DNA from: Eggerthia catenaformis OT 569 = DSM 20559
GTDB taxonomy: Bacteria; Bacillota_I; Bacilli_A; Erysipelotrichales; Coprobacillaceae
Length of the DNA: 64,000 nucleotides
Assembly: GCF_000340375.1 (NCBI RefSeq)
Contig: NZ_KB446647.1
Location: 207,875 to 271,874 of the forward strand
Direction: 5' to 3'
Shown: piece after piece, positions 3,038-32,701 of the stretch
Numbering within the stretch: position 1 is the stretch's first letter
Layout of the letters: each line of letters opens with the position of its first letter
Program-made: the position numbers and the translations under genes
The notes under the pieces: generated by a model
Seen by the model: only the letters and a program-made list of their open reading frames with translations
Told to the model about the DNA's origin: nothing
The model's database searches: none

Positions 3038-3062
3038 AAGTGTTCCTCGAACACTTTTTCTT
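3038..3062 (+). terminator. Intrinsic terminator
   Basis: AAGTGTTC / GAACACTT with a CTC loop followed by a T-rich tail. It lies downstream of the aldo/keto reductase remnant and upstream of the next promoter. Confidence 0.8.
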
Positions 3063-3128: not shown

Positions 3129-3980
3129 ATGTTTAGAAAAGGGAAGCCGTCACGAAAATATAAATCTTATCAGATAAATAAGAAAAAAAAGGCTTATGCA
3201 ACAAAAGAAACAGGCTTTTTTAGAAAAACAAAGAAAATATCTTCTAAGAAGATTAATAGGGCAAAAACAAAACTAACTTTTAGTAGTTTATATAATAAAC
3301 AAAGAACAAAAGCCGTAAAAGAGTATTCTTATCATTTAAGCCGTCAGGCTAGAGATTCATTCTATACTTTAAAGCCATCAGCAAAAAAGAAAGATCTAAA
3401 GCCAATCAGATTTCATTATGAAACTAAGAAGCCGATTAAAGAAAAAGAGACTTATCATTTTAGATATCATGCACCAAAAAGAGTTAAGGCTGAGAAAGCG
3501 TCTGAATATAGATTTAAATATTTTCCTGATAAACAGGCTAAACAAGAAAAGAGAGAAATTTATCAGTTTAAGTATCACCCGCCTAAAACTGTTAAAAACA
3601 AGGAGAAAATTAGTGAATATAGATTCAGATATCGTCCTGAAAAGGTAAAAGAAGTTAAGAAAACACCTGAATATCATTTTAAATATAAAAGTGAAAAGAA
3701 AAAAAGAAAGACTGCTAATAATCTTTATGTATTCAAATATCATCCTAAGAAGCCTAAGAAATATAAGAAAGAAAAAAGAAGTGAATTTCATTATAAATAT
3801 GAATCACAGAAAAGAGGAAAGCTCAGTTTTATTATAGTTTTTTATTTGGGTATCATTTTTATTTCTTTAGTCGGAGCGGCTATAAGTTTCTATTATAAAT
3901 CATATATATCTTTAGTTTTATTTATGTTTTTATTCATTATTGCGATTTATGAGAGTTTTATATCAAAGAATGGAGAATAG
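3129..3980 (+). CDS. Lysine-rich tandem-repeat membrane protein
   Basis: A 283-residue protein not recognised as a known family. Residues 1-231 are extremely basic (about 60 Lys by eye, many Arg and Tyr). From about residue 90 they carry seven to eight degenerate repeats of 18-20 residues built on an aromatic strand pattern such as EYRFKY, TYHFRY, IYQFKY, EYHFKY and LYVFKY, each followed by a Pro/Lys-rich linker. Two hydrophobic segments (about 232-254 and 258-275) close the protein, so it is probably a C-terminally anchored membrane protein whose basic domain could contact nucleic acid, acidic lipid or wall polymer. The ATG at 3129 is preferred over GTG at 3120 because AGGTGA lies 5 bases upstream. 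Two bases separate it from the kinase gene. Confidence 0.75.
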   Translation: MFRKGKPSRKYKSYQINKKKKAYATKETGFFRKTKKISSKKINRAKTKLTFSSLYNKQRTKAVKEYSYHLSRQARDSFYTLKPSAKKKDLKPIRFHYETKKPIKEKETYHFRYHAPKRVKAEKASEYRFKYFPDKQAKQEKREIYQFKYHPPKTVKNKEKISEYRFRYRPEKVKEVKKTPEYHFKYKSEKKKRKTANNLYVFKYHPKKPKKYKKEKRSEFHYKYESQKRGKLSFIIVFYLGIIFISLVGAAISFYYKSYISLVLFMFLFIIAIYESFISKNGE

Positions 3981-3982
3981 TT

Positions 3983-4915
3983 ATGGGAATTGTAGTATTT
4001 GGAGCAACATTTGTTGATATTAAAGGTTATCCTATTACTCAGTATATACCGGGAGGAAGAAATACCGGCAGAGTCGTACAGGTGCATGGCGGAGTTTCAC
4101 GTAATGTAGCTGAAGATATTGCCAATCTGGAATTAAGACCCTCCTTTGTTACTGTATTAGATCATTCAGGCATTTCATCCGATGTAGTTGAAAAACTAAA
4201 TAGACATAAAGTAAATACTGACTATGTCAGATATACAGAGGATGGTTTAGGGACATGGCTGTCTGTCTTTAATAATGAAGGAGATGTTGTTGCTTCAATA
4301 TCTAAAAGACCTCATCTTGATCTTATTAATGAGATATTGGATGAATCAGGTGATGAATTAATTTCTAATGCTGATAGTGTTGTTTTAGAAATTGATATGG
4401 AACCTTCTATATTAAAAAGAATTTTTCATCTTGCAGAAAAATATCAGAAACATGTTTATGCAATTGTTTCTAATATGAGCATTGCAGTTGAAAGAAGAGA
4501 TTTAATTAAGAAGACAGACTGCTTTGTATGTAATCAGCAAGAAGCAGAGATTTTCTTTTCTGAATCTTATGAACACGTATTACCATTAGAAATGATGAAT
4601 ATACTGACAAATAAAGTAAAGATTGCTCAGGTTTCTTCTATGATTGTTACGATGGGTCAGAATGGAGCTGTATGGGCAGACAGTCAGGGACATTCCGGAG
4701 TATGTCCTGCTCAGAAAGTTAATGTTATTGATACAACAGGATGCGGTGATTCTTTCTTTGCAGGGGTGGTCATTGGACTTACTTATGGAAAAACGATTGC
4801 TGAAGCCTGTGTTATTGGAACAAGGCTTGCTGCTTCAGTTATAGCAACTAAAGAAAATGTATGTCCAAGATTTCTTCCTGAAGAGTTTAATATTTATATT
4901 GATGGAGAGAAATAA
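3983..4915 (+). CDS. PfkB-family carbohydrate/nucleoside kinase
   Basis: A 310-residue ribokinase-fold kinase that transfers phosphate from ATP to a sugar or nucleoside hydroxyl. The start MGIVVFGATFVDIKG and the Gly-Gly region (VHGGVSRNVAEDIA) match the substrate-binding half. The PfkB signature VIDTTGCGDSFFAG (about residues 251-264) holds the anion hole and catalytic Asp. The N-terminal layout resembles pseudouridine kinase-like members, but substrate cannot be fixed. It follows the repeat-protein gene by two bases and precedes the sirtuin gene by one base, so the three are surely co-transcribed. Confidence 0.85.
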   Translation: MGIVVFGATFVDIKGYPITQYIPGGRNTGRVVQVHGGVSRNVAEDIANLELRPSFVTVLDHSGISSDVVEKLNRHKVNTDYVRYTEDGLGTWLSVFNNEGDVVASISKRPHLDLINEILDESGDELISNADSVVLEIDMEPSILKRIFHLAEKYQKHVYAIVSNMSIAVERRDLIKKTDCFVCNQQEAEIFFSESYEHVLPLEMMNILTNKVKIAQVSSMIVTMGQNGAVWADSQGHSGVCPAQKVNVIDTTGCGDSFFAGVVIGLTYGKTIAEACVIGTRLAASVIATKENVCPRFLPEEFNIYIDGEK

Positions 4916-4916
4916 G

Positions 4917-5654
4917 ATGAGTGATAAATATTATGAATTAAATCAAATTATTAATGAATCTAGACATATAGTCTTTTTTGGCGGAGCGGGAGTTTCTACG
5001 GAAAGCGGTATACCGGATTTTAGAAGCAAGGAAGGTCTTTATAATAATTTGGGTATAGAATTTGAACAGTATAGTCCTGAGTATTTACTTTCTCATGAAT
5101 GTCTTTATTATAATAGTAAAGTATTTTATGAATTCTATCGTCAGAAAATGAATATTTTAGACATTACGCCTAATGATACTCATAATAAATTGGCTTTGAT
5201 GGAAGAAAAGGGGAAACTTGATTGTATTATTACACAGAATATTGATGGACTTCATCAAAAGGCAGGGTCAAAGAGAGTATATGAAATTCATGGAACAGTA
5301 TTACATAATTATTGTGATTGCTGTTTTAAAAGATATCCTTCTGATTATTTATTTAAAAATAATGTCAGTATTCCATTATGTAAGTGTGGAGGGATGATTC
5401 GTCCTGATGTTGTTTTATATGGTGAAACATTGCCTGCTGATGCTTACAGGCAAGCAATTAATGCGATTGAACATGCTGATTGTCTGATTATTGGAGGAAC
5501 ATCTCTTAATGTTTATCCGGCTACCGGCATGATTGATTACTTCAATGGTAAATATTTAATTCTGATTAATAAAGATAGAACTGTTAGAGATAGCGATGCT
5601 TCACTTGTCTTTCATGAATCTATCGGCTATGTTATGAATCAGATTATTATTTAA
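4917..5654 (+). CDS. cobB: NAD-dependent protein deacylase (sirtuin)
   Basis: A 245-residue sirtuin that removes acyl groups from lysine using NAD. Visible are the NAD-binding GAGVSTESGIPDFRS (residues 21-35), the catalytic TQNIDGLHQKAG, the active-site His in YEIHGT, a zinc site formed by CDCC and CKCGG, and the IGGTSLNVYPA and LINKD segments of the Rossmann half. The length is normal. The ATG at 4917 is chosen because GGAGAG lies 8 bases upstream and the conserved N-terminus starts there; upstream in-frame codons overlap the kinase gene. It ends the operon whose first product is exceptionally rich in lysine, which makes that protein a conceivable substrate. Confidence 0.92.
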   Translation: MSDKYYELNQIINESRHIVFFGGAGVSTESGIPDFRSKEGLYNNLGIEFEQYSPEYLLSHECLYYNSKVFYEFYRQKMNILDITPNDTHNKLALMEEKGKLDCIITQNIDGLHQKAGSKRVYEIHGTVLHNYCDCCFKRYPSDYLFKNNVSIPLCKCGGMIRPDVVLYGETLPADAYRQAINAIEHADCLIIGGTSLNVYPATGMIDYFNGKYLILINKDRTVRDSDASLVFHESIGYVMNQIII

Positions 5655-5662
5655 GGGAATAT

Positions 5663-5690
5663 AAAAAATGGATCAAAAGATCCATTTTTT
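5663..5690. terminator. Bidirectional terminator
   Basis: Arms AAAAAATGGATC and GATCCATTTTTT with an AAAA loop between convergent genes; A and T runs flank both sides. Confidence 0.9.
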
Positions 5691-30699: not shown

Positions 30700-30729
30700 A
30701 AAAAAGACTAAAGCTGATAACTTTAGTCT
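30700..30729 (-). terminator. Terminator of the foldase pair
   Basis: AGACTAAAG / CTTTAGTCT with a 7-base loop, followed on the minus strand by TTTTTT; it overlaps the last codons of the second foldase gene. Confidence 0.88.
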
Positions 30730-31703
30730 ACAAAATCTTTATTAAGTTCTTTGATTGCTTTTTTGAGTTTTTTATCATAGACAGTAAATTTATATTTCTT
30801 TAGATAATAAGCTTCAATATCCTTTTTAACATCTTCATTAGATCCTAGTGACTGAATAATACTGCTTTTATTTGATGTTTTATCAGTATTGTAAATATAT
30901 ACAATTGCATAACTTCCTGTTGAAAGCTTAACAGCATCTTTATAGATACCGTTCTTAGTGATCTTAGAAAATGTTTCTGCTTTCTTGATGATATTAGCAT
31001 CAATTGTTGTTGTGCTTGAAACTTTGGAAACCAATCCATAATCTTTATAAGTTCCGGAATTTTCTTTAGCAAGCTGATTAAAAGCTTTTGAATCAGTTGC
31101 TTTTTTGATTGCATTTACTGCTTGTGATTCTTTAGAATAAGTAATGACTTTTAAGTAAGAAACTTGATATTTATCAATTATTTTCTTAAAGTTATCATCT
31201 AGGTACTTTGCTTCCATTAAATCAAGCTTAGCACTGGGAATAATAACCTTTTCTTCTAGCTCTTTTACATCAGAATATCCTTGAGCAGTTGCATAGGCTT
31301 TTAATGAGCCATAATTAGACTTATATTTGTTTTCTAATTCTTCGGTTTTTTCATTAATCTTTTTGGTATCAGTAATTTCTTTAGAAGCAATTTTATTGTA
31401 AGCATCTGTTAAGATCTGATTAGATCCATAGTTATCAAGAAGGTATTCATAATATCCCTGTTTTGTAATGGTAACATCACCGGTAATAACTTCTTTTGAT
31501 CCTCCGGTTACTTTACTTGTATATTTGTCACCATTATTATTTGAATAAATAAGATAACCTGTCATTCCTCCGATGATTAATACAATCACAAGTACTATTG
31601 CACCAATTGTTTTCTTTGAAAGCTCTAACGGCTTTTTCTCCACTTCAACCTTGTGAACCTTCCTAAAGGAAGAAGTTTCTACTTGTTTTTCTTTATCAGA
31701 CAT
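30723..31703 (-). CDS. Membrane-anchored SurA/PrsA-like foldase
   Basis: A 326-residue protein with a cytoplasmic basic tail (1-32), one transmembrane helix (about 34-55, IGAIVLVIVLIIGGMTGYLI), and an extracytoplasmic part that resembles SurA_N (TKQGYYEYLLDNYGSNQILT) followed by a degenerate parvulin-like region (VSYLKVITYSKES to YAIVYIYNT). It probably helps fold exported proteins. It follows the lipoprotein paralogue by 5 bases with its ribosome site inside that gene's end. Unlike the usual PrsA it has a helix anchor instead of a lipobox, and its isomerase motifs are weak, so it may be only a chaperone. Confidence 0.75.
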   Translation of the reverse strand: MSDKEKQVETSSFRKVHKVEVEKKPLELSKKTIGAIVLVIVLIIGGMTGYLIYSNNNGDKYTSKVTGGSKEVITGDVTITKQGYYEYLLDNYGSNQILTDAYNKIASKEITDTKKINEKTEELENKYKSNYGSLKAYATAQGYSDVKELEEKVIIPSAKLDLMEAKYLDDNFKKIIDKYQVSYLKVITYSKESQAVNAIKKATDSKAFNQLAKENSGTYKDYGLVSKVSSTTTIDANIIKKAETFSKITKNGIYKDAVKLSTGSYAIVYIYNTDKTSNKSSIIQSLGSNEDVKKDIEAYYLKKYKFTVYDKKLKKAIKELNKDFVD

Positions 31704-31708
31704 AATGT

Positions 31709-32674
31709 TTATTTCCTTTCTTCCTTACGTTTATTAAGATTCTTTGTAATTGTTTCCTCAATTGCAGCCTTAATAGTGTTATCCTTATAATTAATCTTAT
31801 AAGTCTTAAAAGCTAAATAAACCATATAATTATCATAGGTAATTAAAGGTGAATTAATATCAACGGTTTTTAATTCTTTTTTAATATCTTCTTTTTTTGT
31901 AGAATCACAATGAAGAAGATAAAATCCTCCCTTGCCGGTAATAACACTGCTGGTTTTTCCTTCTGTTAAAGTGAAGGCAGCATCATAGACTGCAGAACCA
32001 TAAGTATCACTTAGGCTACTTACCTTCTTATCGACAATACCTAAATTACCTTTAGCATTCTTAGTAGTATCTGCACTATATCCTTTTGCAACATCAGCAA
32101 AACTTTTTCCTGCTGCTAAAAGATCCTGAACTTCTTTGAGATTCGCTTTTTCGATTTTGGTAGGATTGCTTGTATTCATTGCAGATACTTTAATAATAGA
32201 TAATTTACGAGGAGAAGCATAGTTATAATAATCCTCAACAACTTCATCGAAGTGATCCTTAACATATTTTTTCATCAGTTCAGCATACTGATAAGAATAA
32301 ATGACTTTTTTTCTATAATCATCAATGCTCTTATATCCGGCTGATTTTAAATCACTATTAAGCTTTTTCTCATAATCATCACCTTTCTGTGACTTATAAG
32401 AAGCCTTAATGTTTTCTACCATATCAGCAGCATTTTTTTTCATAGCATTAGTAGCGGGATATTTTTTACTGATTAATGTATCTAAAACATAAGAAAATAA
32501 GGCTGTTTTTCCGCTTGATGTATTGCTTAAAGTAGAATATATACTATCAGCAAATATATTACCTTGGCTTGTGGATGCGACTACAGATTTGCCTCCAGCT
32601 GTCTTGCCGGCCTGACATCCACTCAAAAATAAGAGACCTGCAAGAGTGAGGCCTGTTAATTTTTTTGTGTTCAT
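31709..32674 (-). CDS. prsA: PrsA-like foldase lipoprotein (parvulin domain)
   Basis: A 321-residue lipoprotein foldase. The signal peptide ends with lipobox LSGC (Cys at residue 20 of MNTKKLTGLTLAGLLFLSGC). A SurA_N-like helical part is followed by a parvulin peptidyl-prolyl isomerase domain (about 155-255: PRKLSIIKVSAMNT, SFADVAKGYSADTTKNAKGN, YDAAFTLTEGKTSSVITGKG, FYLLHC). The ATG at 32674 follows AGGAGG; an ATG six codons upstream is rejected. It acts outside the membrane on secreted proteins and forms a two-gene operon with the helix-anchored paralogue downstream. Confidence 0.9.
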   Translation of the reverse strand: MNTKKLTGLTLAGLLFLSGCQAGKTAGGKSVVASTSQGNIFADSIYSTLSNTSSGKTALFSYVLDTLISKKYPATNAMKKNAADMVENIKASYKSQKGDDYEKKLNSDLKSAGYKSIDDYRKKVIYSYQYAELMKKYVKDHFDEVVEDYYNYASPRKLSIIKVSAMNTSNPTKIEKANLKEVQDLLAAGKSFADVAKGYSADTTKNAKGNLGIVDKKVSSLSDTYGSAVYDAAFTLTEGKTSSVITGKGGFYLLHCDSTKKEDIKKELKTVDINSPLITYDNYMVYLAFKTYKINYKDNTIKAAIEETITKNLNKRKEERK

Positions 32675-32701
32675 AAGTTCCTCCTTAAACATATAACCTT
32701 A

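Follow-up and report, generated by a model that had tools for sequence, protein, structure and literature searches.

A lineage-restricted, lysine-rich repeat protein encoded with a PfkB kinase and a sirtuin in Eggerthia catenaformis: a possible client of GpsB

The first gene of a three-gene set in Eggerthia catenaformis OT 569 = DSM 20559 encodes a member of a protein family that is real, unusual, uncharacterised and lineage-restricted. From its sequence, we tentatively propose that the protein may be a disordered, membrane-tethered scaffold, specific to Coprobacillaceae, whose short SRxAR block would dock onto GpsB.

The genes were found in the window, that is, the whole stretch of 64,000 nucleotides that was analysed. 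They are separated by gaps of 2 bases (repeat gene and kinase) and 1 base (kinase and sirtuin), and the gene order and spacing given in the preliminary description are exact (Table 1). A terminator-like hairpin lies 5' of the set, and the perfect hairpin between the sirtuin gene and a convergent Na/Pi transporter gene is the likely transcript end; hence, a single three-gene transcript is likely. The ORF at 2592-2966 matches an aldo/keto reductase in its C-terminal part alone (profile positions 167-260 of 291) and looks like a gene remnant.

Table 1. Positions of the three genes, their signals and the parts of the repeat protein (window coordinates)
Feature	Position	Strand	Basis or detail
Terminator-like hairpin	3038..3056	+	5' of the three genes
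Ribosome-binding-like AGGTGATTG	just 5' of ATG 3129	+	
Basic, predicted disordered repeat protein with C-terminal membrane hairpin, 283 aa	3129..3980	+	
First S-R-x-x-[RK] motif, SRKYK, residues 8-12	3150..3164	+	
Second S-R-x-x-[RK] motif, SRQAR, residues 71-75, GpsB-binding-like	3339..3353	+	best-conserved block of the presumed cytosolic region
Repeat array	3405..3800	+	anchors I93, Y109, Y127, Y145, Y164, Y182, Y200, F220
Two-helix membrane hairpin, residues ~232-280	3822..3968	+	hydropathy, AlphaFold2
PfkB-family kinase gene	3983..4915	+	full PfkB domain (Pfam)
Single-domain sirtuin (NAD-dependent protein deacylase)	4917..5654	+	GAG, TQNID, HG motifs, zinc cysteines
Perfect 12-bp hairpin AAAAAATGGATC-AAAA-GATCCATTTTTT	5663..5690	.	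read from sequence

The N-terminal 231 residues of the repeat protein contain 61 lysines (about 60 had been reported), 18 arginines, 37 aromatic residues and 21 acidic residues (D+E), with a net charge of +58. Lysine makes up 22% of the reading frame (286 aa from the first possible start) versus a mean of 9% over 62 window ORFs and 16.6% for the next-highest one, so the lysine richness is not a matter of AT-richness alone. Two adjacent ORFs of similar size elsewhere in the window (30723-31703 and 31709-32692; 326 and 327 aa, 15-17% lysine) are among its most lysine-rich after the repeat gene. Eight consecutive [YFILV]-x-[FY] anchors follow each other in steps of 16-20 residues, mostly 18, while the longest chain in 10,000 shuffles never exceeded five, and the identity autocorrelation of the protein peaks at 18 and 36. 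The repeat, first described as 18-20-residue and aromatic/basic, is indeed present as an aromatic repeat of 18-19 residues. Copies share 39-65% identity as DNA, and TRF detected no tandem array in the DNA of the gene, so the repeat is seen at the protein level only. This suggests an old pattern maintained at the level of protein.

AlphaFold2 modelling of the window repeat protein (six sequences) gave a mean pLDDT of 52. The core of the hairpin was predicted with pLDDT of 81-93 and confidence was low outside it, with SRQAR placed in a helix at residues 52-76 (pLDDT ~47). A homologue from Sharpea, folded in search of a solenoid, likewise gave a confident hairpin and low confidence elsewhere, with pLDDT of 30-40 and no structure over its array. 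Structure prediction, which had been proposed as a check, thus yields no confident structure for either array. Low pLDDT obtained from few sequences is consistent with disorder and is not proof of it. No relative of the repeat protein was found among solved structures. According to the positive-inside rule, the basic side of membrane proteins is cytosolic; hence, judging by charge alone, the long basic N-terminal region would be located in the cytosol.

A single-sequence search returned one convincing homologue, encoded in genome G019 and devoid of repeats. It took profiles of two and later of six rows to reach G018, G026, G030 (Sharpea azabuensis) and G031 (Sharpea porci), bringing the family to six Coprobacillaceae genomes from four genera. 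Scans of 316 genomes from the order and of 392 taken from the phylum found no further convincing members; the family therefore seems confined to a part of Coprobacillaceae (Erysipelotrichales), in agreement with the Erysipelotrichia named in the preliminary description. Pfam and NCBIfam produced sub-threshold matches only. Weak matches in G006, G191, G280, G289, G035, G037 and others were dropped, by inspection or score, as unrelated membrane segments, and one in G339 was dropped because it sits in a 767-aa ABC-transporter-like protein.

The C-terminal hairpin is common to all six homologues, and lysine outnumbers arginine in every member. Lysine density is not conserved, with a lysine content of 26% for the window protein, 20-26% for the short forms and 14.5% for Sharpea, and a net charge per 100 aa of +25 for the window protein and +9 for Sharpea. 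In Sharpea, the arrays keep the 18-residue period, with as many as 14 strict copies of I-[NH]-F, and differ from the window array in sequence, place in the protein and far lower net charge. What is conserved across the arrays is the 18-residue period and the hydrophobic-x-Phe anchor, not lysine richness. The array precedes the SRxAR-equivalent block in Sharpea and follows SRxAR in the window protein, as judged by eye, since the MAFFT alignment of the full-length proteins is poor over the arrays. We infer that the two arrays are independent expansions of a similar motif. Such expansions with the same period would suggest that motif spacing is under selection; that a single array was rearranged is a less simple alternative.

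A block S-[RK]-x-[AM]-[RKQ] followed by YT, LYT or LYN runs through the six homologues. When the window protein with its array cut out is aligned with the G018 and G019 proteins, SRxAR...YT is the most conserved segment (six of ten columns identical). Such a sequence resembles the GpsB-binding motif SRxxR(R/K), which is located near the membrane in B. subtilis PBP1 (PMC6335420) and is also present in S. aureus FtsZ and PBP4 (PMC11062636). The GpsB-binding motif of S. aureus AuxB is SRQAKY (PMC12505970), and S. aureus FacZ combines a membrane anchor with a disordered, net-positive cytosolic region carrying such a motif (PMC10914604). G018 has the full motif (SRQARK), and its last position is missing in the window protein (SRQARD) and in G019 (SRKARA). 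The key arginine is not universal, as the block reads SKQAK in Sharpea and SKNMQ in G026. The window protein, G018 and G019 have two SRxx[RK] sites each (shuffling P-value for at least two sites 0.06, 0.009 and 0.012, respectively), and 4-8% of shuffled versions of such a basic protein contain SRxxR by chance. The window SRQAR is ~160 residues away from the membrane.

GpsB/DivIVA-domain proteins are encoded in all nine genomes tested, and each of the seven genomes whose GpsB sequence was read has a short GpsB-like protein. That of the window's genome scores 88.5 bits versus the NCBIfam GpsB cut-off of 91. Alignment by eye to B. subtilis GpsB shows an acidic groove in it, with residues that match Tyr25, Asp31, Leu34 and Asp35 and with Gln in place of Glu17. 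In the same genome, a class A PBP gene and the gpsB-like gene are adjacent and divergent (G000:C1:474373-476038). N-termini of class A PBPs in these genomes, read from mechanically assigned start codons of which some may be wrong, are without the motif except for one G019 PBP (TRQNRK); a poor match, TRTLKK, was found in one G011 PBP. These N-termini therefore offer little independent indication that this GpsB recognises SRxxR, and covariation between PBP N-termini and the SRxAR block provided no support.

In the proposed arrangement, the C-terminal two-helix hairpin would hold the scaffold in the membrane, leaving the long, positively charged and presumably disordered N-terminal region in the cytosol. 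The SRxAR block would dock onto GpsB, an adaptor of division and cell wall, as in PBP1, AuxB and FacZ, the basic body may lie against anionic lipid or polymer, and repeated contacts to a further putative partner could come from the hydrophobic-x-Phe motifs spaced every 18 residues. The kinase and the sirtuin would most likely be co-transcribed neighbours with metabolic jobs of their own. A GpsB client is the most specific testable reading of these sequences, and a possible one, at clearly less than an even chance.

The basic disordered region might instead bind DNA, RNA, anionic lipid or polyphosphate by its charge and aromatic residues, tethering the bound polyanion to the membrane, and need no specific protein partner. 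The presumed cytosolic region carries a net positive charge in every member of the family (per 100 residues, +9 to +25), which agrees with such a tether, as do the low-confidence arrays and the lack of a solved relative. However, the 18-residue hydrophobic-x-Phe spacing and the SRxAR block are retained across almost threefold differences in charge density, and we regard binding to polyanions as the whole function as somewhat unlikely.

Assignments of the two neighbours agree with the preliminary description. The kinase contains a full PfkB domain (Pfam, 3e-33), which it shares with the ribokinase and pseudouridine kinase group; it reaches no NCBIfam equivalog cut-off, and its best solved relative is a probable sugar kinase (3kzh). 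A pseudouridine kinase role was not supported, given 61 bits versus a curated score of 540 and no PsuG partner (PF04227) in seven genomes. The product of the third gene, described earlier as a lysine deacylase, matches SIR2 (Pfam, 1e-52) and, like bacterial sirtuins, clears the curated cut-off (NF001752, 310.7 bits versus 221) with the catalytic His, NAD and zinc motifs present. It reads YEFY where desuccinylases carry their Y-x-x-R signature. In G029, two adjacent ORFs lie 5' of the main sirtuin gene (L036:3287-4988), the second one sirtuin-like; together they resemble a macrodomain and SirTM pair.

We searched the relatives for conservation of the triplet, and found kinase, repeat gene and sirtuin side by side in one of 43 family genomes, the window's own. 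An ortholog of the kinase is present in 14 of the 43 and adjoins the sirtuin only in the window. The sirtuin is encoded in ten, with a weak match in an eleventh, and these include all six genomes with the repeat gene; a repeat gene mostly without the sirtuin, the finding that would have contradicted the preliminary description, was thus not observed. In four of the six, the repeat gene is on the same strand, 0.07-2.9 kb upstream of the sirtuin: a gap of 69-78 bases separates it from the sirtuin ORF in two Sharpea species, where the kinase is farther upstream on the same strand, and it lies ~2.9 kb upstream in G026. In the other two, the genes are ~2 Mb apart (G018) or on different contigs (G019). 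No member of the repeat family was found at 49 sirtuin loci of other lineages, outside Sharpea, where the neighbours are diverse. Overall, the link between the repeat gene and the sirtuin is real but lineage-limited.

Other genes at these loci deserve mention. Near the repeat gene and sirtuin, Sharpea azabuensis encodes a 449-aa protein in which a PTS HPr domain is fused to a D-2-hydroxyacid dehydrogenase (L035:8372-9721); judged by start and length, so does G026 (L033:979-2328). In G026, the gene 3 bases before the sirtuin (L033:6326-7531) encodes a different PfkB, which is ribokinase-like, extended at the C-terminus (DUF6508, sub-threshold) and only 25% identical to the window kinase. A conserved PfkB-sirtuin pairing was considered for this reason and rejected, as only one other PfkB, convergent, adjoins a sirtuin among 51 loci from other records. 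A literature search for sirtuins with PfkB or with lysine-rich membrane proteins returned nothing relevant.

A lineage-specific protein of unrelated function could share a transcript with the kinase and sirtuin by chance. The three genes are reshuffled among genera and the neighbours of the sirtuin vary outside the family, as this would predict, yet three of four genera have the repeat gene on the same strand and less than 3 kb upstream of the sirtuin, which independent random placement would hardly produce. Shared ancestry of the neighbourhood explains that position with no functional tie, and the few genomes cannot separate the two. We consider a chance operon somewhat unlikely.

The preliminary description proposed that the lysines are acylated, for instance by acetyl phosphate, and that the neighbouring sirtuin deacylates them, switching charge and binding. 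Gene position agrees with it in part: every genome with the repeat gene has the sirtuin, and the two are close on one strand in Sharpea (directly), the window (one gene between) and G026; the predominance of lysine over arginine in all members agrees with it as well. Neither lysine density nor linkage to the kinase is conserved, the Sharpea density being about half that of the window protein. The sirtuin also occurs without the repeat gene in four of ten family genomes and at the 49 other loci, and the two genes are far from each other in G018 and on separate contigs in G019. Distribution and variable lysine content thus weaken the idea of a sirtuin substrate, which we judge improbable. That the same-period arrays, of independent origin on either side of a GpsB-docking motif, form a multivalent envelope tether with sirtuin-tuned lysines is more improbable still, and hardly to be expected.

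If the GpsB link is true, a lineage of gut and rumen would supply a client of a type unrelated to those known, and with the paired arrays nature would have provided an experiment on whether charge or motif spacing is under selection in a disordered repeat. If the sirtuin link is true, the repeat protein would offer a concrete candidate for a multi-site target of lysine acylation in bacteria.

Among known systems, the putative GpsB client is closest to FacZ and AuxB. It resembles FacZ in having a membrane anchor and a net-positive, probably disordered and presumably cytosolic region that carries a short motif with arginine. This likeness implies no homology: FacZ has an N-terminal single helix and a coiled coil instead of a C-terminal hairpin, and the part of its description available to us mentions no 18-residue repeats. 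AuxB, a DUF4064 membrane protein, has its SRQAKY in a cytosolic tail, and the family has a similar block in a tail that is presumed cytosolic; in the G026 member, the hairpin matches DUF4064 of Pfam below the cut-off (E-value 0.008). However, AuxB has four helices and a C-terminal tail, whereas the repeat family has two helices and its tail is N-terminal.
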